Below, piece after piece: positions 39,545 through 57,844 of a stretch of DNA of 64,000 nucleotides. The notes under the pieces were generated by a model. It was not told the origin of the DNA and made no database searches. It saw only the letters and a program-made list of their open reading frames with translations. Position numbers and translations under genes: made by a program. Location: the NCBI GenBank assembly GCA_964017235.1, contig OZ024936.1, positions 10,144,496 to 10,208,495 on the forward strand, read 5' to 3'. This stretch comes from Sabellastarte sp. h YS-2021. Taxonomy: Eukaryota; Annelida; Polychaeta; Sabellida; Sabellidae. Each line of letters opens with the position of its first letter. Position 1 is the first letter of the stretch.

Positions 39545-42500
39545 AAAGACTAATAATAATAATTCATTTATTCGTTAAGTTGCACAGTGATCATTAAAGC
39601 ATGTACAATAACACTTCAAACTGAACACAAAACACAGGAAAATAAAAACATGAGAACTTGAATGTACAGAAATGAGATCAACTATATATTTTTTTACATA
39701 TTATCTGAAAATAAGTCGCTCTAACTAGAGCTGAGGAAATCTATAATATGAGAGATGTTATTTTTGTCACAATCAGGAAGTAGAGCACAATCTCTCATTT
39801 CAATGAAATCATTAATAGTACCAGCTATAGCAATATCTTGTTCACTGGGAACCTTGAAGCATTCCATTCTGTTGTAACAATATAGCTGATATTTGTCTAA
39901 TGAATATTGTGAACTTAAGTAGTTTAGACTACAAGATACATCAGATTTACTCCCTCTCAAGACAAGGTTGTAACAGAGTCGAACAATACTATTTGGACTA
40001 GATTGACAATTCTGAAGAAACTTTAATTGTCGTCTGTGTAATTGCACATCAATATCAACATCGGCACAGAGTAGATGAATAAGGTTTGAATGTGTTCTAT
40101 TAGAAACCTGAAGAAGACGTCTGCAGCATTTACGCCAGGCAATATACACCTTTTCAGTGATACTGGAGTCAAAATTCCATAACTGACATCCATACAGTGC
40201 CATACAGTATGTTTTAAACAGAAAATACTTTAGCTCACTAGTAGCAGAATGGAATTTAAACATTAATGAATTAAATCTAGAATACATTGTATGAACAGCA
40301 TCAGTTACATATTTGTCACTTCTACAACTGTCCAGCAGGTTACCAAGATGTCTTTCCCATTTAGAGCTTTGAATATTTACATTGTTAAAAAAGATAGAGT
40401 TCTGTTCTACACTAGATTTACCCATAATAAGATATTTACATTTACTTGCATTAAAAATAATACTGTTTGTTTCTGCAAATTTATTGGCAATGTCTAACAT
40501 ACTGTTTAATGCATTCTTAGAAGGGGCTAACAGGATTATATCATCTGCATATCCCAGGGCACCTGTGAAGGTACACCCTATGTGGCACCCAAGTCTCTGT
40601 TGTGTGAAATGCTGAAACAAGCCATCAACATATATGGCAAATAAGGTTGGCGAAAGGACTCCCCCTTGTTTGACACCATTCTTTATAGTAAAGGGTTCAG
40701 AGAGTGTATTTATCCAATTGACACACATTATTTGATGTGTATACAGATTAAGAAGCAATCTAGTGACTACCGGGCACAGGCCACGATTACATAGAAGTTT
40801 GAACAAGGTAGCATATTGCACTCTATCAAATGCCTGAGAGGCATCTAGAAGCATGACATGAACATCAGTATTTTTATTGTTATAGTACTGTATAACTTCC
40901 CTCACAACAAATGAACACTGATTCGTAGAATGGTCCTTTTTAAAACCGAACTGCAGGTCACTAGTGTTGAGGGTGTGTTTATGCCTATTTAATATGCATA
41001 AGTCCAGCAACTTCAATAAAATACTACCCATGGCAATGGCACGATAATTTTTTGAGTCATTCAGAGATTTCCTTTTATCTTTCGGGATAGGAATCAGGAC
41101 AGATTCCAGGAGATCATCAGGCACAATGTTATGGGTGATCATATTACTAAGTAGTAAAGACAGCATCACATGCAGTCTATCATTCCCGTGTATCAGGTGA
41201 TCAGTGAAAAAACATTTGTGACCACCATGTTTGCCAGATTTCAACTGGTCTATGGCAAGTTTGACATCTTGGACACGAATATGATGATCATGATAGCATC
41301 TTTTTGTGAAGCAGCGTGAAGTTATTTCCTTTTCAACGTAATTTGTAAGATAATGCAAGTCACCTGTACTTGTTGGAACACTGCTGTAAAGCTTAGCATA
41401 CTTATCTCTAAATAAAGAAGCAATGTCGCTTCTGCCTTGTGTGTTGTCCATACTGACTGCTGGGGTGTTAGACTTTGAACAAAGTTTTCTGATGTTCTCC
41501 CATAATTGTATAGTATTGTTTGACCTAAGAGAGCTAGCGACATTAGTCATCACAATAGCATCCTGGTTTCTTTTCACCTGTTTGACTACTCTGTGATATT
41601 GAGCACGTGTTGATCGCCGTATATCAGCGACTAATCCATGATGAGGACAACCACAACTCTTCCAAATGTTGTGCCAAAAAATTGCTTTTTCATGGTACTC
41701 TTTGACCCATTTATTCCATCCAGGGATGATGTGCCTATTTCTTTGTGTGTTGGAAGAATATGGGATATTAGATTTTGAGGCAGTTAGACAGGCTGACACT
41801 ATATGATCATACAGTTCTTTAATGAGATTTCTGTGTGTCTTTTGAGTACACATTACATTATTACAAGATATGACACATTTAGAAATATTCTTTTGAGCTA
41901 GCAAGTAGTTCAAATCACTTTTGTATTTGTCCAGGTTTTCAACAGAGGCCCTCATCCACATTGGTTTGGGAATGTGCATGTTGTCGCCTTCACTCGCCGG
42001 AACATTTGTACATTTTATATCAAGATGCATGCTTATTGGAGAATGATCTGATGTATTATGACCTTCATGAGACACATAGTACTCAAGCACAGAGTCTTTT
42101 AACAGATTAGATACAAAGATATGATCTAACCATGAACGTTCACAGCAGGATTTACTTTCATATGTGTAATTGATAGGATCAGATGGGGGCACGATGCTCA
42201 GACCTTCCTTGGACAAAAAATCAGAAAGACATTTAGTATAAGTGGAAGCACCTCTTGAGAAGTCTGTGTTGAAATCTCCCCCAAGAATCACTGCATCATA
42301 TTTGTGAGAGTCACAGTAGCTAGATATTAGACTTAAGCAGAACAAAAAATCATCCCTATGAGAAGTGTCAGATTCACATGGCATGTAAACATTAAAGATA
42401 AGTAGGTGTTTCTGCTCTATTATTATGTTGATACCACTTATCCTCGAATTTGGGATGTTAATGGGAGTTACAGATGCATTTAGGTTGGACTTCCAAAGAA

Positions 42501-42662
42501 TTGCAGTTCCGCCAAATGGTCTACCAGTTAGTAACTTCTTTTTATCCATTCCAGAAGTGCCATGAATTTCACAATTTGCCATTACATTTTTGTAGATATC
42601 AAGATTGTCGCATAAGAGCCAATGTTCTTGAATCAACAGGATGTCTGATTTATCCAAGATAA
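39545..42662 (-). mobile_element. LINE insertion (endonuclease + RT), near-intact ORF2
   Basis: Minus-strand element: a 978-codon ORF followed by about 180 bases of 3' UTR and an ATTATT-repeat tail at 39551-39562. The 5' end is abrupt near 42662, within the endonuclease domain. No clear target duplication was found by eye. It sits inside the TIR element 38805-43475. Confidence 0.8.
39721..42657 (-). CDS. LINE ORF2: APE endonuclease (partial) + reverse transcriptase
   Basis: The 978-codon frame is free of stops. Endonuclease motifs: 'DILLIQEHWL' (residues 5-14), 'GGTAILW' (49-55), 'VILGGDFN' (123-130), 'SWLDHIF' (175-181), 'TSDHSPI' (202-208, catalytic His). RT: 'LIPIPK' (521-526), 'YRAIAMGSILLKLLD', 'DLQFGFKKDHST' (567-578), 'LLDASQAFDRV' (603-613, first Asp), 'GVKQGGVLSPTLFAIYVDGL' (661-680), 'GYADDIILLAP' (702-712, catalytic Asp pair). 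The style suits the CR1/L2/Rex1 side of the Jockey superfamily, but the clade is uncertain. The first 20-30 residues of the endonuclease, including the usual N-terminal Asn, are missing, and the listed start is TTG. This is a 5'-truncated but young copy, which is striking given that every other LINE here is riddled with stops. Confidence 0.85.
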   Translation of the reverse strand: MDKSDILLIQEHWLLCDNLDIYKNVMANCEIHGTSGMDKKKLLTGRPFGGTAILWKSNLNASVTPINIPNSRISGINIIIEQKHLLIFNVYMPCESDTSHRDDFLFCLSLISSYCDSHKYDAVILGGDFNTDFSRGASTYTKCLSDFLSKEGLSIVPPSDPINYTYESKSCCERSWLDHIFVSNLLKDSVLEYYVSHEGHNTSDHSPISMHLDIKCTNVPASEGDNMHIPKPMWMRASVENLDKYKSDLNYLLAQKNISKCVISCNNVMCTQKTHRNLIKELYDHIVSACLTASKSNIPYSSNTQRNRHIIPGWNKWVKEYHEKAIFWHNIWKSCGCPHHGLVADIRRSTRAQYHRVVKQVKRNQDAIVMTNVASSLRSNNTIQLWENIRKLCSKSNTPAVSMDNTQGRSDIASLFRDKYAKLYSSVPTSTGDLHYLTNYVEKEITSRCFTKRCYHDHHIRVQDVKLAIDQLKSGKHGGHKCFFTDHLIHGNDRLHVMLSLLLSNMITHNIVPDDLLESVLIPIPKDKRKSLNDSKNYRAIAMGSILLKLLDLCILNRHKHTLNTSDLQFGFKKDHSTNQCSFVVREVIQYYNNKNTDVHVMLLDASQAFDRVQYATLFKLLCNRGLCPVVTRLLLNLYTHQIMCVNWINTLSEPFTIKNGVKQGGVLSPTLFAIYVDGLFQHFTQQRLGCHIGCTFTGALGYADDIILLAPSKNALNSMLDIANKFAETNSIIFNASKCKYLIMGKSSVEQNSIFFNNVNIQSSKWERHLGNLLDSCRSDKYVTDAVHTMYSRFNSLMFKFHSATSELKYFLFKTYCMALYGCQLWNFDSSITEKVYIAWRKCCRRLLQVSNRTHSNLIHLLCADVDIDVQLHRRQLKFLQNCQSSPNSIVRLCYNLVLRGSKSDVSCSLNYLSSQYSLDKYQLYCYNRMECFKVPSEQDIAIAGTINDFIEMRDCALLPDCDKNNISHIIDFLSSS

Positions 42663-42773
42663 ATATAAAGTATAATGCAGGACAATGTTAATTGCAATCT
42701 GTCTTCATATTTCTGTATATATAGCAGGAACTAGTGAATACAGATCATAACATAAACTGAAAACAAAAAGTAT

Positions 42774-47275: not shown

Positions 47276-48415
47276 AATAATATGTCCACCCCCCAGTAGG
47301 GTGAACATAATTAGAACGGTAGAATGGTATAATTATCATAGTGTCATAAAATCTGATAAATCTGTTCACAAAACTGGCTGTTTCCTTTTTGCAATCCCTC
47401 TCTGAGATCGTTTTACTATCCCGAAAATTTTGGGAGTTCAATCTTTTTCATTGCAAACCATAATCATGCTTATCACGAGGGTCGCAATCCTATCTCATAG
47501 CTTTCTCCAACCATTGCAATGATTTCAAATGGTTTGAAATTATCATACACTTTTCCTGATAATTATCATATCATACGCATTTGTAAACCTTGTCACAAAC
47601 CTATTGCAAACCCAATACAAAGTGAATCTTTTAGGTTGTATGTTGATCTTAAAGCCATCTTTTCGATCATAACCAAGTGCCAATTCTGATATTGCACACT
47701 TTTTGCGTCATTTGAAAAGATCTGAAAATCAGCCAATAAGATTGTCTCCAAATATAATGAGCTTTTGCATAACAAATGTCTTATGGACAACAAACATCCC
47801 AACAAATGGGAGGCACTATGAAAGACTTTTTTAAAGAGAATAACATGAACAAGGCTGCCTTTGAATTTTGGTTTGAGAGTCAATATATGGGAAGTTAATA
47901 CACACTTAATAAGGCTAAGGTACACTTCATCTAACTGATAGGCAGAAGTGGCTGAAAAGAACTTTTCCTTCTTCAACCCCCACATTGTGTGACACTTCTC
48001 TTTCACGAGTGCTTTCAAGATTGCACATGAGGTCACAGTTTCGAGTCCACCTCAGATACTGCCCCATCAGAGGAGTCGGAACAGCCCATAGCCACAAACC
48101 GCATATCAGGGGAGTTGCCATCACTTAGTGGCGGACATAGGACAACCGAGGGGCCAAGGAAATTGGCAGGCTTCTCCCCTACCCCTTCCCAAGACCCACC
48201 TAGTACTTAAACATGTGCTATACTTACCATTACTGAGGTGAAGTTCTAATTAAAAATGCAGGAGAGACAAAAGACATTGGACTCTCTGGAAGACAAATCA
48301 GAGAGGATGTTATTCCAGAAAACTCAGAACGACCAAACAGTGGCCCAATTTGATTGGCTTTGATCAGAACTGAAGGATCTATCAACAAGGCAATTTTAAT
48401 AAGTAAATTAAATTT
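47276..48415. other. stretch without recognised genes
   Basis: A 147-codon minus-strand ORF (48036-47593) lies here. It has no recognisable motif and no supporting signals, so it is noted only. Confidence 0.35.
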
Positions 48416-48419
48416 TTAT

Positions 48420-50115
48420 AAGTTAATATCCTATCCAATGGACAATTGGTTTACCGGTCAGCGCGACCAGTTCCGCTAAACGCCAGAAAAAGACATCCTG
48501 TATATACTACCGGCAGGACCGGTCACAGAGTGTGCATTATAGCATCTTTTTTGTTTGGCGCATGGAGTGTGCAGATGTGTTTTCTACAGAGAGACGTTAT
48601 GAACTTTTAAGTATTTCTACATAATTCTACTAGTATTCTGATCATCCCCTGGACAGAAGATAGGCACTTGCGGCCACATGATGGTTTTGTTTCATGGCCA
48701 CAAGAAATGCATGAGATGCAGAGAGAAGGGAGTGAGTGACGATTCGTGTGTGAAGAATTTGATTCCCCTGCTAGTGCTACCCCCACTCTCGAGGATCCAT
48801 CAGAGCTCACGCTTTTGGGATGGGTACACAAGGAATCTGCCTCTGTTGAATCGTCTGCTAGCAAGAAGAAGATATTTGATGAATCGCCCAAGACTAGCAG
48901 TAAGAAGAAATCCAGCAGCAAACCAGGGTCTGATGAAATCAAAGACCTAGATGAGAAGTGGGCTGAACGTTTTGCCAGATTAGAAGCTATGCTGGTTTCC
49001 AAGATGTTTGCTGTGCCTGTAGAACCTGTGAAGAAACCCTCTTCAGTGGTTACCAGTGATCAGTCCTTTTTTTGATCCTGGAACCTCCACCAGTGGCTTA
49101 CCCGGTCAATCTCTCAAGCCATGGCCTGAATAATGCAGGACTTGTCTGAAACGGTTTTCATCAACATGGCAAACTTTACCCTTGTGCGTAGAGACAGTTA
49201 CCTGGAATGCTTGCATGCTAGTGTTAAACAAGATACTCTCTCTGCACTACGTACTGCTCCCATCTATTTGCAGTCGCTTTTCCCGGACCAGCTTCTTATT
49301 AAAGTTGAAGAAGAAGTGTCAAGAAGTGAAGAGAGGTATTCTTTTAGCCAGTCAACCAGGAAACCCGGTCAATTCCGCCCATAGGCTTCCAATGACAAGT
49401 CATCGCATCAACCGGACCGGAAGTCTTCTATTCCTGCTTGGAAGCAAATATGTGAACGCCAACAGGGAAAGAAAGGTCTTGGTAAGCCTTTAACCTTCTC
49501 ACAGAAACCGGCCATGGGTTCTAAACCACGTAAATGACAATTACTGTGTAAAATGTGTTACCGGACTGAAGGACTGTGCTTGTGTGTCCGGAAAGATAGG
49601 TTTGAACCCTTCACCAGTAATGGCCAAAAACTTGACCAGCAAGAGCGAGTCTGTAAATTTACTTGTAAACTCTTGTGTTGCAAATGATCATTCTGTCACC
49701 GAGTTGCCACAAAAGAAAGGCGTAATTCCCAATTACTGGATCAGCTCGTGAACAAAAATGCAGCAGAACAGGTAGCAACTCAAAAATCACTGGGGTTTTA
49801 CAACAGGCTTTTTTTGGTACCCAAACCTAACAAGCGGTTGAGACCTAACTTAGACCTGAGCACATTGAACACCTTCCTAAACACAGAGTTGTTCAAATTG
49901 AAGACACCAGAGACAATAAGAACCTCCCTAGGGGCAGGGGAGTGGGTTACCTCAATAGATTTCAAGGATGCATACTTCCACATACCAATTCACAGTCAGT
50001 CTAAGAAGTACATGCGTTTTCATGTCCAGGGTCAGTCCTACCATTAAAAAGCCCAACCCTATGGCCCGCCAACAGCACCCATAGAGTTCACAGTGGTGGC
50101 CAAAGAGATCAAACT
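48420..50115 (+). pseudogene. older DIRS-like element, 5' part (gag and RT start)
   Basis: The gag-like Cys block 'GHKKCMRCREKGVSDDSC' (48697-48750, one frame) continues in another frame as 'CEEFDSPASATPTLED...' (48746-49075), with Ser/Lys-rich and 'DEKWAERFARLEAMLVSKMF' stretches, then 'FTLVRRDSYLECLHASVKQD' (49161-49220). The RT begins at 49748: 'SLGFYNRLFLVPKPNKRLRP', 'LDLSTLNTFLNTELFKLKTP', 'WVTSIDFKDAYFHIPIH', then in a shifted frame 'YGPPTAPIEFTVVAKEIK', ending at 50115. Residue for residue this follows the RT of the inserted copy ('SLGFYSRLFLVPKPHQRWRP') but is clearly diverged. Multiple frameshifts show age. CCGGT-rich sequence at 48450-48530 may be its terminal repeat. Confidence 0.85.
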
Positions 50116-50156
50116 TGAAAATTTTAATTACTTAAATGTAGCTTTTATAAGCTACA

Positions 50157-50300
50157 AGCTTACCATGTGGGACTGAATGCTTTACTGGTTGCCGCGAGGC
50201 ACAGACGACCAACGCTCGAGAAAAACAAGCATGTAGTTGGTTCGGCCTCATAGGTTGTCGTGACGTCATCACTTCCTGTGTATCAGCCTCCTTTTCGTTG
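50157..50300. repeat. DIRS left inverted repeat (144 bp)
   Basis: By eye identical to the reverse complement of 56264-56407 over 144 bases, from AGCTTACCATGTGGG to CCTCCTTTTCGTTG. The 41 bases outside it (50116-50156) are not shared with the right end. Confidence 0.95.
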
Positions 50301-50359
50301 AGATTAAACCCATGTCCCCTCAGCTGTAATACAGCGGGGAGGTAGGGTGGGACTCTTCT

Positions 50360-50463
50360 CAGTCCCACATGGTAAGCTTGTAGCTTATAAAAGCTACATT
50401 TAAGTAATTAAAATTTTCAATTTTATTGCGCTACAATAGCTTACCATGTGGGACTGAATGCTG
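50360..50463. repeat. DIRS internal complementary region (circle-junction copy)
   Basis: 50360-50419 is the reverse complement of the left terminus (CAGTCCCACATGG ... TTAAAATTTTCA). 50420-50463 is the reverse complement of the right terminus (ATTTTATTGCGC ... GACTGAATGCT). The two meet at 50419/50420, exactly the head-to-tail junction that the replication model of DIRS requires as template. Confidence 0.93.
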
Positions 50464-50940
50464 AATTCAACCGCCCGGTGGCGGGATTACAGCTGAGACT
50501 GGAAGGTCTGAATGTTGTTTTTCTCGAATTGAGAGTAATAAAAAAATAGTTCCAAAAAATTTCCAGTCTGAGTCCCATTTACAGAGTCCCAATCCTGAAG
50601 GTCGGACTTGTAAAGAGCCAAAAACCTGATGAGAATACACAGTGTCGTACACTGTAGGGTGTTTGGAAGGAGGATTGTGTACCCGGAGTACACAGATAGG
50701 AAGAACCCCTAAGGGCTATGACGTCAGAAATGAGGTCAAGGTTCGAGAATTGCTATTTGCAACCTTATTTATAAGACAACCTTATGGTCCCAAGAATTTA
50801 AAGTTAATGTAAATTTAATATGTGAGACCTTACCTGTAACACCCTGATGAGGTAGCTTATACCTAGACCTGGGGAGACTCCTGAAGGCTTAGCTGTAGCG
50901 GACGTGCCCCCCCCCCCCCCTTTTCTTTCCGAAGAAGACA
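50464..50940 (-). other. DIRS 3' untranslated part
   Basis: Between the recombinase stop and the internal complementary region. It contains a C13 run at 50908-50920 and no motif. Confidence 0.6.
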
Positions 50941-52070
50941 TCACTGAGGAGAAGGGTCTAGGACCTGTTGAGCCGCTACTACTGGTCCCAGATACATGTT
51001 GTTGTCGTTGTCCGACCAAGTAAGGTCTTTTAGATAAAAATTGGTAAACGTGTTGTGAGCTTTCCAGTGACACGCTTGCATGATCTGGTCCACCGATACC
51101 CCACCGTAAAAAGCCTTAGAGGCTGCGAAGGCCCTAATGTCATGCGCTTTAACTTGGACTAAGTCCAAGGCTTGCTGGTCTGCTTGCTTATAACAAAGTA
51201 GAATGGTTTGTTTCAACCATGAAGAGAGAGTAGCGGGTCTGATATCTGAGGTATGTCCTTTCTTGAAGGAGATGAAAAGAAGAGACCGGGACCCTCTCAG
51301 GTCCTTGGTTCGGTCCAGATAGTACCTCAAAGCCCGTACAGGACACAAGGTCCTGTCTTCTTTGAATTGTCTATCTACAATGGTAGTCAAGGCAGGAATA
51401 GTCACCGGAGACACACTTTGAGAACCTTCTCTTGCTAGCTGGTTTTTGGCTATAAAATCTGATGAAGGGAACAAGGCTACCTTTTCCCATTGGCCTAGAT
51501 TAGATACTTTGTTTGCGACCCAGGCGTGGATTTCACTGCGGCGCTTGCCGGAGGCCAGAGCTAGCAAGAAAGCAGTCTTGAGAGTGAGATGTTTGAGGTC
51601 TGTGTCTTTCATAGGCTCAAAGGGCGCTTTTGTGAGCTCATTGAGGACAACAGATAGGTTCCACTGAGGAAGGTTTCTGGAACTCTTGGGGCGATCCCTG
51701 TGAAAACTGGAGAGCAACCTGTGAAGGTCCTCATTATGGGCAATATGCTGGGCCGTAGGGCCCAGAGTGTCAACAATAGCTGTCCTGTAACCATCAATGG
51801 TAGAGGGGCGCCTGTTTAGGTCTTGGTACAGATACATAAAGAAATCAGATTTGCTTCACAGATGGTGAGGAGAAATCCACCGAATTATCTCTGCACCATT
51901 TTTCAAATAGGGCCCACTTTGATTTGTAGATGTTCCTTGTTGAAGACCGCTGAGGTGCAGCAATTCTCTCTGCCACTTCCACAGAGAAGCCTTGTTCTTG
52001 GAGTTGTCCACTCCTAGAGACCAGGCGTGGAGGTTGAGGTGCTGCGGGGAGCTGTGGAACACGAAGTTGT
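50941..52070 (-). pseudogene. DIRS tyrosine recombinase (one frameshift)
   Basis: The integrase of DIRS elements, a lambda-type tyrosine recombinase. The N-terminal core-binding domain ('RSSTRNIYKSKWALFEKWCR') lies in the frame ending at 51845. The catalytic domain is in the frame from 51837 to 50941. A one-base loss near 51848 ('VKQI' to 'SDFFMYLYQ') separates them. Counting from Met 51837: catalytic Arg in 'GKRRSEIHA' (about 99-100), 'HDIRAF' with His232 and Arg235, 'CHWKAHNTFTNFYL' with His/Trp at 257-258 and the nucleophile Tyr268. All conserved positions are present. It overlaps the RT ORF end by about 200 bases, the usual DIRS arrangement. As it stands it would not give a full-length protein unless frameshifting occurs. 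Confidence 0.9.
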
Positions 52071-54132
52071 GGGACTGCTTGAGGAGTGTTGTCGACACCG
52101 GGAGTTGTAGAGGGATCTCTGTTGAGAGCTGCACTAGGTCCCAGAACCAGGGCATCCCTGGCCAGCCTGGGGCTATTAGTATGATCAGGCAGGTGCATTG
52201 CCTGATTTTTTGGATCACCCTGTAAAGGAGAGCCGTTGGAGGGTAAGCATAAGCAGTGAGACCCGTCCAGTCTATGTTTAGAGCATCTATGTCCCAGGCC
52301 TGGGGGTCTGGGATAGGAGACACGTACATAGGGAGCTTGTGGTTCAGATGAGTGGCAAAAAGGTCCACGTGGGGAGTGAACCACTTTCGGCAGATCTGTT
52401 TGAACACCTGTGGATGGAGTGACCATTCGGTCGACTGAACCTGGTTCGACCTGGAAAGTAGGTCAGCCATCACATTCAGGCACCCTGGAATGTGTCTGGC
52501 TTTCAAGATTATGTGATAGTGGTGGCACCAGGTCATGAGTCTCCACAGGAGTGCGCACATCTCCGCCGAGTGTGTTCCCCCTTGTTTGTTTATGTAAGCT
52601 ACCACAGTTGAGTTGTCCGTGGCAACTAGCACTGTTTGGTCCTGACACTGGTCTTTGAAGTGTCTCAAAGCCAGAAAGACAGCTTTCAACTCTAGGACGT
52701 TTATGTGAAGTCCTTTTTCCTGAGGTGACCACAGACCTTTTGTAGAACTTTGTTCTAAGTGAGCGCCCCAGCCTTCGTTTGAGGCGTCTGTAAAGAGTTG
52801 GATACTGTGGTCTTTGGGATGAAGGTCGGCGCCTATCATCACCTTTGCAGGATTCTGCCACCAGTCCAGATGAGCAGAAATGACTTCTGTCCAGGGAAGG
52901 AGGCTGTCCAGCGACTGAGGAAATTTCCAGTGCTCTTTCAGGTGAAACTGAAACGGTCTCATGTGAAGGCGTCCCTCCGGGACCATCTTCTCCGTTGAGG
53001 CTAGCAACCCAATTAGAGACATCAAACATCTTGCAGTCAAAACATGTTTCGACTTGAATCGTAGGATCAAATCCTGAAGTTTGAGCCATCTGTCTTGAGT
53101 GGGTTTTACAAGGGCTGAATCTAGGTGGTATTCGTAGCCCACGAACGAGAACACCTGAGTTGGTTTCAGTTCTGATTTCTCTTGGTTTAAGATCCATCCC
53201 AAGGACTGGGTGAGATCTACCACTGTCCGAGTGTTCACTAATGCTTCCTCCTGGGACTGAGACCTGATCAGCCAGTCGTCCAGGTATTGATGAAGTCTGA
53301 GTCCTCTGCTGAGGGCCATGAGCTTCACTTCTTTGACGACCATGGTGAATACCTGGGGGGCTGTGGCTAGTCCGAATGGGAGCGAGGTGAACTGGAACAC
53401 CTGTGACCTGTGGCAAAATCTTAGATACTTCCTTGAGTTTGGATGGATGGGGATGTGGAGGTAAGCGTCCGACAGGTCTATTGACGCTACCCATTCCCCC
53501 GGAATCAGAGAAGTCCTGATGGACTCTGGCGTTTCCATTTTGAACTTTTCTACGTGTAGAAAAGTGTTGAGCCTGCTTAGGTCTATTACTGGCCTCCACC
53601 TTTGGTGAGGCTTGGGTACAAGAAAGAGGCGACTGTAAAACCCGAGAGATTTTACATTTTCCACCCTTTCGATAGCGTTCTTTAACAGGAGAGACTGGAT
53701 GCAATCGGCCAAGGCTTGGTCTTTTTGAGGGGCCTTGTACTCTGACACAATCAGAGGAAATCTCATCAAGTTTGGCCTTGAGAGGAATGGCAGAACGTAG
53801 CCATTGGTGATGATATTTAACACGTTGGCTGAGCAATTGTTTGCGTGCCAGTCTCTCCTGAAAGAACGGAGGCGACCTCCTACTGGTGGATTGATTGAGG
53901 CTTGATAGGAGTCATTGGGAAGAGGGGTTTCCACGCCCTTTTCCTTTGTTGTGGGGTCGAAAACGACCCCTGGAGCCTCTGAAGTTTGGTTTTCCTCTAG
54001 AAGAGGGAAACGAATAGTTGCTGCTTTGGGAGGAATTGCCCCCAAAGGGGCGTTTCCTGTAGGAGCCTCTTCTCTTATTGTGGTGGGAACCACGAAAGGG
54101 CTTATTTTGGTAGGGTCCGAAACCCTGAGCAT
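51856..54132 (-). CDS. DIRS reverse transcriptase-RNase H polyprotein
   Basis: The 758-codon frame is open without lesions. RT: 'SLGFYSRLFLVPKPHQRWRP' (162-181), 'WVASIDLSDAYLHIPIHP' (214-231, first Asp), 'FTSLPFGLATAPQVFTMVVK' (248-267), 'LHQYLDDWLIRS' (280-291, catalytic YLDD). RNase H: 'IQLFTDASNEGWG' (444-456), 'NVLELKAVFLAL' (478-489), 'VLVATDNSTVVAYINKQGG' (501-519), 'HIPGCLNVMADLLSR' (547-561), so all four acidic residues are there. After it comes a Cys/His-poor tail with 'FATHLNHKLPMYVSPIPDPQ' and 'AWDIDALNIDW', conserved in DIRS. No methyltransferase domain was seen. The start Met at 54132 overlaps the gag end; the true start may lie elsewhere. Confidence 0.93.
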   Translation of the reverse strand: MLRVSDPTKISPFVVPTTIREEAPTGNAPLGAIPPKAATIRFPLLEENQTSEAPGVVFDPTTKEKGVETPLPNDSYQASINPPVGGRLRSFRRDWHANNCSANVLNIITNGYVLPFLSRPNLMRFPLIVSEYKAPQKDQALADCIQSLLLKNAIERVENVKSLGFYSRLFLVPKPHQRWRPVIDLSRLNTFLHVEKFKMETPESIRTSLIPGEWVASIDLSDAYLHIPIHPNSRKYLRFCHRSQVFQFTSLPFGLATAPQVFTMVVKEVKLMALSRGLRLHQYLDDWLIRSQSQEEALVNTRTVVDLTQSLGWILNQEKSELKPTQVFSFVGYEYHLDSALVKPTQDRWLKLQDLILRFKSKHVLTARCLMSLIGLLASTEKMVPEGRLHMRPFQFHLKEHWKFPQSLDSLLPWTEVISAHLDWWQNPAKVMIGADLHPKDHSIQLFTDASNEGWGAHLEQSSTKGLWSPQEKGLHINVLELKAVFLALRHFKDQCQDQTVLVATDNSTVVAYINKQGGTHSAEMCALLWRLMTWCHHYHIILKARHIPGCLNVMADLLSRSNQVQSTEWSLHPQVFKQICRKWFTPHVDLFATHLNHKLPMYVSPIPDPQAWDIDALNIDWTGLTAYAYPPTALLYRVIQKIRQCTCLIILIAPGWPGMPWFWDLVQLSTEIPLQLPVSTTLLKQSHNFVFHSSPQHLNLHAWSLGVDNSKNKASLWKWQRELLHLSGLQQGTSTNQSGPYLKNGAEIIRWISPHHL

Positions 54133-56001
54133 CTTTTGAGGTGCCTTTTTTGAGAAGGAAGTCCTCGCCTTCCTTCACTGACTGGGAGTTGAACAGGGAA
54201 CGAGTCCAGAGAGAGGAATTCCTGAGCTCTTGACGTCTGGTTTCCCCTAATTGTGGCTGCAGATGGGACATTTCGGCTTCGCGTCTAAGCAAGCCGGAAG
54301 TTGCCATTGTGTAAAGTTCCCTTTGTAAAATATGGGCAAGGGATTTGCTCAGGCAGGTTATGGCCTTATGTTGAATAGTGAGGGTCTTCTCCCAGAGATC
54401 AAAGTAGTCATAGGCCTCATCATAACCACGTTTTACTGCTTTTTCAGGGTCAGCACCTTTCCTGACCTGGGACTTGACCTTCTTGAAGGTTTCTTTTAGT
54501 CCATAACGACACCTCCTCATGGTAGAGTTGCAGGAGGAGGATGTCTTGGCAAAAGTGGTCGTGAAATTCAATGTGGTTAGATTGTACCTTGCCTGTTGTT
54601 CTAAGTCCTTGAGGACAGAGAGTGGGACCTTGCCTAAAGGGGCCCCCGAAGGTTTAGGAGATATACAGATCTTGGCAAAGTCTGCATTTAAATCTTGGAG
54701 TTTCTCCGAAAAACAAGGTTGTCCAACCTTGTACCACTTAGAAGTGGAAGGGGGGGCTTTGGGTATTTGCCCTCTGCCAGGTTTGCAGCCATAAGGTCAT
54801 TGTTGAATTTGTCAAAGGCATCTCTTATACCAGAGTTGAGGGGCAACATAGTTGATGGACCCGTAGGTCTCAGCTCTTGGACGGCCACCTCGTCATCGAT
54901 ACCTATGATAGCAGTAGCAGGTCTGGGGACTGAATCCCTCGGATCAGGTAATTTGAGGATACGTCGAAAAGTATCTACCTCCTCCGCATATTGATTTGGG
55001 ATGTCAGCCAGAGCCACATCCCTATAGTAGGGCGGATCAAGGTCAATTTGAGGATGTTCCTGATCATCAGAGGCCATTCTCTGGGGCTTGGGAGACCTGT
55101 GTCTACGTCTAGGGGACTGATCCTCCCCTGACGATGAGGGCAAATATGCGGACCTTGACTTATGTTTAGACTTGTCAGAGTGCTTTTTAGGTCTAGAATA
55201 TGAAGGGCGATCATGATCGGAATCAGATCCCGAACCTGAGATTGGAGCATGGCTAACCTTGTGAGTGGACGTCTTGGGGCGAACAGACTGTGTATGTTCG
55301 GAAGAGCTAAGACGAACGTCCGAACCTTGCTCGGCCTGAAGGCGAGGAGGAAGAGAAGGGCCATATTCAATATCCATGGGTTCTGAAGCACTGACAGAGG
55401 TCTGAGGTTCGGTGCGAACAGCCGAAGAGGCGATCTTATCAGCCAGCCCTTGTTGAGATTTTAGGAAATCTTCACGCATAGATTTAAGGGCATCATAGAT
55501 GTTGGCTTGAAAAACACCAAATTTCTGATCAAATTTGTGGTCCAAAGACTTTTCTACAGAAGAATGGACTTTATGATGTAAGGCTGTACTGGGAGTGGGA
55601 GGAACAGTACGCCCTGGTGTAGTAAGAGGCAAAGGATCGAAAGATAAGGGTCTGGGACGTGGAGGTGAAGTAAACAAATGATCGGCCGCAGCCTCAAGTT
55701 CGGCTTGCGATCCAGAAAACGATTCAAAAGAATCGCCAAGTACCTCGTCCCGATCTTTGTCCGATGCCTGTGAAGTGGGATGTTTTTTCTTGTATCGTCT
55801 TCTATTAGCAATTTTAGTGGACTGTTCGTCTGTGAAAGACGCACAGATTTGACAAGTACCAGCTTTTGTAACACACAGATCATCGCCCTTCCCTGCATCT
55901 CTGCAGGAGGGGCAATAGCCATGACTGTCGAATGGCTGACAGAAATGATTGCATTTGCTGGATCTGGGTTTATCTTTAGAAGACTGGTGGGCGGTGGCCA
56001 T
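53912..56001 (-). pseudogene. DIRS gag-like ORF (one frameshift)
   Basis: The first frame (56001-54688, 437 codons) starts 'MATAHQSSKDKPRSSKCNHF' with a Cys-rich block ('CPSCRDAGKGDDLCVTK', 'CQICASF'), then a Ser/Pro/Asp-rich central part with basic stretches. The frame goes out of register within a C7 run (54750-54756 on the plus strand, G7). Homologous reading continues in the second frame to 53912: 'MRRCRYGLKETFKKVKSQVR', a helical region, and a Gly/Arg/Ser-rich C-terminus ('FRGSRGRFRPHNKGKGRGNP') likely to bind nucleic acid. A one-base indel in a homopolymer may be a real mutation or a sequencing error. The end overlaps RT by about 220 bases. Confidence 0.85.
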
Positions 56002-56263
56002 GTTTTAATGCAATAAAATATGAAATACTCCGAACCGTAGATTCGAGCAGTACTAGTGTAGTGGCGAGCACACAACACGTGAATTAAGAAGACGTTAAAA
56101 AACTGACAAAATACAGCACCGGAAGTGCTGAAAATTGGGTATAAGATTCTATACGGCTAAATAAAGGAAAAGCCGAATTATGGACAAATGACAAACAATA
56201 TATCCAGAGATATAATAGAAAACAGCTTTGAAAACTTAGCAGAGCATCCAATATGGCGGCGAC

Positions 56264-56407
56264 CAACGAAAAGGAGGCTGATACACAGGAAGTGATGACG
56301 TCACGACAACCTATGAGGCCGAACCAACTACATGCTTGTTTTTCTCGAGCGTTGGTCGTCTGTGCCTCGCGGCAACCAGTAAAGCATTCAGTCCCACATG
56401 GTAAGCT
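56264..56407. repeat. DIRS right inverted repeat (144 bp)
   Basis: CAACGAAAAGGAGGCTGATA at 56264 to GGTAAGCT at 56407 mirrors 50157-50300. The 18 bases outside it (ATTGTAGCGCAATAAAAT, 56408-56425) are the unique right tip. Confidence 0.95.
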
Positions 56408-56425
56408 ATTGTAGCGCAATAAAAT

Positions 56426-56480
56426 GATGGCCTTACAGAGGGGTATAAGAATCCACCAGTACCTAGAAGACTGGTTGGTG
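56426..56480 (+). pseudogene. older DIRS element, RT continuation
   Basis: Directly after the inserted copy the host RT resumes 'MALQRGIRIHQYLEDWLVRA', matching 'LMALSRGLRLHQYLDDWLIR' of the inserted element (YLED replaces the catalytic YLDD). Homology fades after about 25 residues and an unrelated Gln-rich stretch follows, so the 3' part of the older element is missing. Confidence 0.88.
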
Positions 56481-57045
56481 AGAGCCACATCCTACAGCAG
56501 ATGCCGTAAACAGTTCAACAGCAGAAACAGCAACCAGTCAAACATCAGATGCAGCAACCAGTCCACCAGCAGATTAAGTCACTCCAAATTACTCCACAGC
56601 AACAGTAAAATCCACTACAAACACGCCACATGTCATCACCAGACTTTGTAACCATCTTACATAGCCTCATGCCAACTCCTATGGATTCAGCCTCAGTAGA
56701 CACCTCATTTTGGTCACTCATCTGTACCTTGTCTGACATGACCACAGGGAGGAAGAGCAGTAGATGACATTGCATGTCTGTTCAACACCCAGCTTTCGGC
56801 TGGAAGTTTCTAAGGCCCTTTGCAAGAGCAGCTCTATTGTTAAAAGACAAAAAAAATCCTCTCAAGTCGCAAACAAACCCAAACATACTTATTTAAGGAC
56901 ACATCCTGTGAATAACTTTCCAAAGAGAAACAGTTTCTCCCCACCTAAAAAAAATATTTAAAGGTTAAAGTGTTCCAACTCTTCCTTTTCTCTCTCATTA
57001 AAATATCAGGGAACATGGCCTATCCCCAAAACCCAAAATACAAAC
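56481..57045 (+). other. Gln-rich coding-like stretch and non-coding sequence
   Basis: In one frame 56495-56610 reads 'VQQQKQQPVKHQMQQPVHQQ' and onward, then 'SPDFVTILHSLMPTPMDSAS' at about 56637-56700. It looks like protein-coding but is not a DIRS domain I recognise. It may be gag-like sequence of another element. Confidence 0.3.
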
Positions 57046-57655: not shown

Positions 57656-57801
57656 AAGAATAAGATTAAAATTATAGTAAAATTAAATTTTCATTTCAAA
57701 TAGCACATATTTATTTTAATTGAAGAAATAGTGTCCATACAATATCACGCAAAAGGTATAACAAATATAGAATCTGTACATAAACATTATCATAAACACT
57801 A

Positions 57802-57841
57802 GCACTAAGTCCCAGTTGGTAGGCTACTGTAGCGCAATAAA
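57802..57841. repeat. DIRS right-terminus remnant
   Basis: AGTCCCAGTTGGTAGGCTAC TGTAGCGCAATAAAA resembles the right tip of the full DIRS copy (AGTCCCACATGGTAAGCTAT TGTAGCGCAATAAAA, 56390-56424). Nothing else of a DIRS element precedes it. Confidence 0.65.
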
Positions 57842-57844
57842 AGT

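Follow-up and report, generated by a model that had tools for sequence, protein, structure and literature searches.

We analyzed a window of 64,000 nucleotides from the sabellid polychaete Sabellastarte sp. h YS-2021 (assembly GCA_964017235.1, contig OZ024936.1, positions 10,144,496 to 10,208,495 of the forward strand), in which a DIRS retrotransposon lies inside the reverse transcriptase (RT) gene of an older DIRS copy (Table 1), and compared both elements with further copies across the genome (1.79 Gb in 647 contigs). The nesting itself, which the original prediction had proposed from the letters of the window, is borne out by the sequence of the window as well as by the genome-wide copies. 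Here, we describe this structure and the short palindromic target that insertions of the younger family appear to share.

The inserted element is an ordinary DIRS. In addition to its inverted terminal repeats (ITRs), it carries an internal complementary region (ICR) that is complementary to both termini (50359-50424 to 50111-50176 at 98% and 50420-50462 to 56383-56425 at 100%), and the circle junction stored in this region has arms and core of the form AAA-ATTGAAAA-TTT. The 304-aa open reading frame (ORF) near the end that we call the tyrosine recombinase side (YR-side) displays, as judged by eye, an R..HxxR..H..Y arrangement, which we take to be the catalytic pattern of such a recombinase; a comparison with PDB sequences gave Tre/Cre recombinase matches that were not significant (E-values of 0.17-1.3). 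Its frame offset from the preceding ORF may reflect a break, or else a shift of frame such as has been considered for DIRS-1 (PMC5006619). No match to a DDE integrase was found among the five ORFs scanned with Pfam, and no Pfam match in the scanned ORFs pointed to a methyltransferase-like (MT) domain, for which no dedicated model was used; this domain is absent from Ngaro and Viper (PMC3266345).

Table 1. Features of the nested DIRS structure, in window positions
Feature	Position	Strand	Description
Older DIRS copy, left part	48390..50114	(+)	Terminal repeat 48390-48538 followed by degraded coding sequence up to the broken RT
Left target arm and first core base, AAA-C	50111..50114	(+)	AAA at -4 to -2 preferred in sample
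Young DIRS element, inserted	50116..56425, equally 50115-56424	(−)	6,310 bases; one T common to element and target; both junctions read
ITR, YR-side arm	50157..50300	(.)	144 nt, 100% complementary to 56264-56407
ICR	50359..50462	(.)	Stores circle junction GCGCAATAAAA/TTGAAAATTTT in reverse-strand reading
ORF of 304 aa, probable tyrosine recombinase catalytic part	50941..51855	(−)	Out of frame with preceding ORF
ORF of 772 aa, RT and RNase H	51856..54174	(−)	RVT_1 E-value 3.7e-18, RT_RNaseH E-value 4.3e-07
ORF of 438 aa at gag position	54688..56004	(−)	Assigned by position only; no Pfam match
ITR, gag-side arm	56264..56407	(.)	144 nt, 100% complementary to 50157-50300
Remaining target core TGATGGC with right arm CTT	56425..56434	(+)	TTT in many older copies; T at +8 to +10 preferred
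Older DIRS copy, RT resumed	56426..56492	(+)	67 bases, then homology ends

The left junction (~50108-50125) reads ATCAAAC-T-TGAAAATTTT and the right junction (~56414-56436) reads GCGCAATAAAA-T-GATGGCCTTAC; save for the ambiguity of one T, the boundaries are those originally predicted. Joined without the insert, the flanks read ATCAAACTGATGGC, and an unfilled allele of the site would read AAACTGATGG. The first six older-family copies found contain CAAACTGATGGC uninterrupted. None of 11 further copies read at the site carries an insert, and seven of them show the exact CAAACTGATGGC, while L118 and L121 deviate by one or two substitutions; a small deletion is present in L119, and in L125 the site itself is spanned by a deletion. 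Across the genome, the target in its uninterrupted form yielded 1,478 matches with up to two mismatches (711 + 767), compared with 0 for a reversed-pattern control, and no base was duplicated or lost at insertion. A target site duplication was likewise lacking both at the older RT and at a second repeat described below, the empty sites of both being known. The claim of an insertion free of target duplication thus agrees with all of these uninterrupted targets. Two findings had been named as speaking against it, namely a target duplication and the same junction in copies that lack the insert; what the other copies hold is the uninterrupted target, with no duplication. Judged by these comparisons, the structure is a duplication-free nested insertion with a defined empty site.

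It had also been claimed that removing the insert restores the reading frame of the older RT gene. This stands in that no base is lost or duplicated, but the continuity is local only. Specifically, the older gene carries an in-frame TAA at 50045-50047 and lacks a stretch, mostly of ~290 bases, near 49737 that most compared copies have (seen as second, separated pieces in 31 of 39 other scored copies, and in five of six loci), and it was therefore broken already; one other copy, C1:137367304, matches through without this stretch. The left part of the older element is identified by terminal-repeat matches and by homology to six loci, and the RT domain remaining at 49688-50047 is recognized by RVT_1 below the cut-off (E-value of 1.4e-05). 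The older RT does resume at 56426 as predicted, but only as far as 56492; this segment is 92.9-97.0% identical to all seven older-family copies compared (over 42-67 bases), beyond which homology stops. The left (gag-side) end of the older copy is itself unusual, as 48390-48538 consists of YR-type outer ~40 bases fused to a gag-type interior (L138 compared with L158 and L159), as though the terminus had been restored using the wrong ICR half.

The two elements differ in age. A first look at the young family returned 1,085 candidates, of which 40 were scored, including the one in the window, each showing 99-100% identity across 361 bases. When 1.5 kb are compared, the median difference between the window insert and 28 other sampled copies is 0.47%, with a range of 0.2 to 23.6%, the upper end of which means that at least one of the 28 is aberrant. 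In comparison, older-family copies show 85-89% identity to the window copy in their main matching pieces. On these figures, the order of a younger insert in an older host element holds.

The sites entered by the young family were read from a flank-blind sample of 40 places, including the window, in which gag-side ends were read at 39, YR-side ends at 30 and both at 30. Counted from the exchange point, the left arm displays A at -4, -3 and -2 in 25, 28 and 28 of 30 flanks, and the right arm displays T at +8, +9 and +10 in 27, 30 and 25 of 39. With alike targets merged, at least four of the six arm bases are matched in 23 of 25 contexts, a level reached by 9.9% of 708 off-register positions taken from these flanks. 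This off-register control rules out random or AT-rich insertion. As a check, 26 other right flanks were read (of 29, 3 were already in the sample), in which T makes up 65% of the bases at +8 to +10 versus 34% further out; these flanks were kept out of the core statistics because their query held the window's own flank, which favors TGAT-like targets. By sequence, the target is thus an AAA-N8-TTT palindrome, the same form as the circle junction encoded in the ICR.

The site in the window matches five of the six arm bases, with CTT on the right, and the site common to the older family is AAA-CTGATGGC-TTT, with C at -5, T at +1 and A at +3, the bases favored in the sample. The element was originally thought to have landed in a conserved RT motif. 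An RT stretch was indeed hit, but the landing is better explained by the fit of this site to the general AAA-N8-TTT palindrome than by the RT motif as such. The insert's own equivalent of the stretch (53266-53337 on the (−) strand; GAAGCTCATGGCCCTC) is without the AAA and TTT arms.

Taken together, we consider it highly probable that the young DIRS was inserted through pairing with an AAA-N8-TTT-like site followed by a one-sided exchange. In such a scheme, the circular DNA of the element, an intermediate suggested by the ICR, would carry the AAA-N8-TTT junction; the tyrosine recombinase, as the presumed agent, would pair this junction with a similar genomic site by recognizing the arms as half-sites; and strands would be exchanged at one side of the core, between the fourth base (AAAN) and the next. 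The YR-side junction would then retain the core of the element and the gag-side junction that of the target, with no base lost or duplicated, and the older RT gene, which offers such a site in about 1,480 places, would be a recurrent landing place. The element's core is kept in all 30 YR-side ends read (the pattern that located these ends included the core, with four mismatches allowed), and the circle core TTGAAA occurs in none of the 39 gag-side flanks, the nearest being five of six bases in L130, whose target is a DIRS end. Cuts placed symmetrically about the palindrome would produce a 6-bp heteroduplex that can be resolved either way, yet the sample shows only one outcome; the cuts may therefore be placed otherwise, or a single strand exchange may be retained every time.

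Several observations weigh against this explanation. The YR-side end was not found in 10 of the 40 sampled places, nine of which gave no trace of an element end by four relaxed patterns in the stretch searched and the tenth of which (L072) gave the ICR only, and one sampled copy, L064, has an aberrant gag-side end. The 25 contexts count L098 separately from three others in its repeat, and L098 lies one base off their position, i.e., the exchange point slips in at least one case. The core is not wholly free, as T is found at +1 in 29 of 39 and a purine at +3 in 34 of 39, and some homology to TTG may help insertion. Moreover, the window site is good but not exceptional: with a weight matrix made without the window, it is outscored by 645 + 624 of 2 x 57,670 positions, while in six older loci the corresponding site is outscored by only 5 to 23 of 6,000 positions. 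Profile recognition of the recombinase is weak (Phage_integrase PF00589, E-value of 0.0022, under its curated cut-off), and a single-sequence fold prediction of this ORF failed (predicted local distance difference test [pLDDT] of 35.8). Finally, the older family speaks for the scheme, with a circle junction of the form AAA-ATTGCAAA-TTT, read from the ICR in L138, and at least two A at -4 to -2 in 16 of 18 distinct YR-side flanks (all three A in 9), but these counts cover the left arm, gag-side flanks having been read in two copies (L158 and L159). The 18 flanks derive from 20 taken, with one duplicate merged and L151 dropped, as its flank is the gag-side end of the same family. In L064, the gag-side end is truncated, GCTATTG being followed directly by TGTTTTGCC; its repeat target is the one also hit in L043 and L057.

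Nesting might instead arise from homing that is specific to other DIRS copies, as reported for Dictyostelium DIRS-1, with the arms mattering little. DIRS sequence is the direct target of 3 of the 40 sampled insertions, namely that in the window, L050/L080 (within the ICR of a related copy) and L130 (at an older-family end), a share that may or may not exceed that of DIRS in the genome; for a fourth, L061, similarity to the older family lies at a distance of 194 bases. In addition, L143 and L130 each bring together DIRS elements of different families precisely at the exchange point. Against homing, the other sampled insertions were not seen in these DIRS families, as far as short flanks and a limited reference set reveal, and they display the same motif; other repeats are targeted as well; and of about 1,480 older-family sites the searches revealed just 2 that are occupied, although diverged occupied sites could be missed. 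On balance, we regard homing as improbable. Strings that join two DIRS ends occur genome-wide in 47 exact matches and in 158 at up to one mismatch, among which L130 and L143 were looked at; these strings were not used as an insertion count, since some may be ICRs of other families.

A second alternative is the published DIRS model, in which a 3-bp sequence at the junction recombines with its identical counterpart in the genome (PMC3266345), so that such identity would suffice and the arms would be incidental. Some identical 3-mer touches the exchange point in 14 of 30 insertions, the AAT form of the junction being matched in 11 and the ATT form in 3. However, the remaining 16, including the insertion in the window, have no such 3-mer, and seven of the 30 (three of these in one repeat) share no base at all at the exchange point, which in these seven lies directly after AAAN. 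Nor can the rule account for a right arm 8-10 bases away. We therefore consider this alternative very improbable, and for the present sample the 3-bp identity rule is rejected.

The two occupied older-RT sites, in the window and on contig C4, were found from both ends. AATAAAATGATGGCNTTACAGAGG occurs exactly in these two places genome-wide; in the search for occupied sites, which returned 35 matches, the two exact ones were taken as occupied and most others examined read as uninterrupted sequence, while C2:189099206 is a DIRS end before a different flank (L109). The left-junction search returned the window and C4 at 0 and 1 mismatch and a weak third match, C18:23875600, at 3 mismatches. The C4 insert (~71387223-71393618) occupies the same nucleotide in the same orientation as the window insert. 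Identity between the two inserts is 84.1% across 391 bases of the YR-side end, and between their flanks it is 85.5% across 200 bases. Such parallel divergence of flanks and inserts could suggest that both loci descend from one duplicated nested insertion, without recurrent targeting. Yet the window insert, with its median of 0.47% and identical ITR arms, is too recent for a divergence of 15%, and the insert ends differ (GCGCAATAAAA versus GCGTAATAAAA); we give this account hardly any credence, and duplication of a single nested locus was ruled out as the source of the second occupied site by the recent age of the window insert. Because that insert is recent, the window and C4 represent two independent insertions of two DIRS sublineages. 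By chance, the same position and orientation in any of the 1,480 copies would be expected with a value of 0.0004 to 0.0011 if 1,085 to 2,656 copies were placed randomly, a rough figure, as these copy numbers are counts of first-look candidates. A search for opposite-orientation insertions at the older site gave no exact match and 468 matches at up to three mismatches, which is not proof of an orientation bias; among the matches listed (100 of 468), 18 with one or two mismatches read as uninterrupted older sequence.

The second repeat is likewise a recurrent DIRS target. Its target sequence (TCTCTAAATGCAAYAGTTTTCAAGTTATAA) has 150,535 matches at up to three mismatches on many contigs, and three sampled insertions (L069, L076 and L092) hit it at the identical base, L098 hit it one base off, and L095 lies in a variant form, judged by eye. 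The flanks of L054 and L098 match a stretch of locus L006 that other reference sequences did not match. An assembly artefact that joined repeat copies at a common AAA run, although conceivable in families this repetitive, is scarcely credible, as the termini are intact at both ends and match the internal ICR copy, the joined flanks equal a sequence found uninterrupted in well over a thousand places, and 30 sampled loci, whose flanks are mostly unrelated, show this junction structure again.

Two further features of the window stand apart from the nested pair. At 57801-57842 there is a lone gag-type DIRS end, 83-86% like the end of the insert, followed by GTATGCTTTTTT, which fits the target motif. 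At 39721-42687 on the (−) strand, a 988-aa ORF resembles, by eye, the endonuclease and reverse transcriptase of a non-long-terminal-repeat element.

Beyond this family, it is possible, and we suggest it tentatively, that DIRS recombinases recognize a short palindromic attachment-like site, need little core identity and perform a one-sided exchange, as if one strand exchange were kept. Since both new junctions keep the AAA-N8-TTT form, each insertion would leave two fresh target sites and would by itself produce DIRS-in-DIRS clusters such as other organisms are known to have. The positions of L130 and L143 at DIRS ends are as would be expected if both new junctions continued to be AAA-N8-TTT sites.

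DIRS1-like retrotransposons share with the element described here the ITRs, an ICR complementary to both termini, RT and RNase H, the lack of a target duplication and, probably, a tyrosine recombinase (PMC3266345), and the termini of the young element are compatible with the ATT type, the most frequent one in that study (Piednoel et al. 2011). Where 3-bp junction identity was modelled there, we find a palindromic AAA-N8-TTT target with no such identity in more than half of the sample; this identity is a proposed mechanism and not a structural criterion of the DIRS1-like family. Dictyostelium DIRS-1 also inserts into DIRS copies (PMC5633606, PMC5006619; Cappello et al. 1984, cited there), and it is described as entering its own copies 'without apparent sequence preference' (PMC5633606), in contrast to the clear preference seen here and to the majority of sampled insertions, which were not seen in DIRS. 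In fish, insertion of DIRS1 into pre-existing copies has been ascribed to target-site selection (zebrafish), again with no target duplication, but, unlike here, the available text gives no target motif (PMC5941688). Duplication-free insertion (PMC3266345) and DIRS-in-DIRS nesting (PMC5633606, PMC5006619, PMC5941688) are thus already known. Among the titles, abstract openings and text passages surveyed, none describes a DIRS target that is palindromic, the specialist reviews (Poulter and Goodwin 2005; Poulter and Butler 2015) being outside this scope; the target rule, rather than the element, may be new, with priority not established.

In the work available to us, models of how DIRS elements choose and cut their targets are derived from the ends of the elements. 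The present genome offers a DIRS family with many near-identical copies together with many defined empty sites, and the target rule can therefore be read at single-base resolution. The published model of 3-bp identity can thus be checked and corrected for this family, and the target rule provides nested DIRS clusters with a simple explanation that can be tested. As a kind, the case is an ordinary one; it is the surrounding copies that give a clear and testable target rule for a DIRS recombinase.

The sites of bacterial tyrosine recombinases, such as those of Cre and Tn916, consist of inverted arms around a core of 6-8 bp, and Tn916-like integration relaxes the need for core homology. Compared with these sites, the target described here has visible arms of only ~3 bp, its probable enzyme is encoded by a retrotransposon, and the outcome at the core is one-sided in the junctions read.

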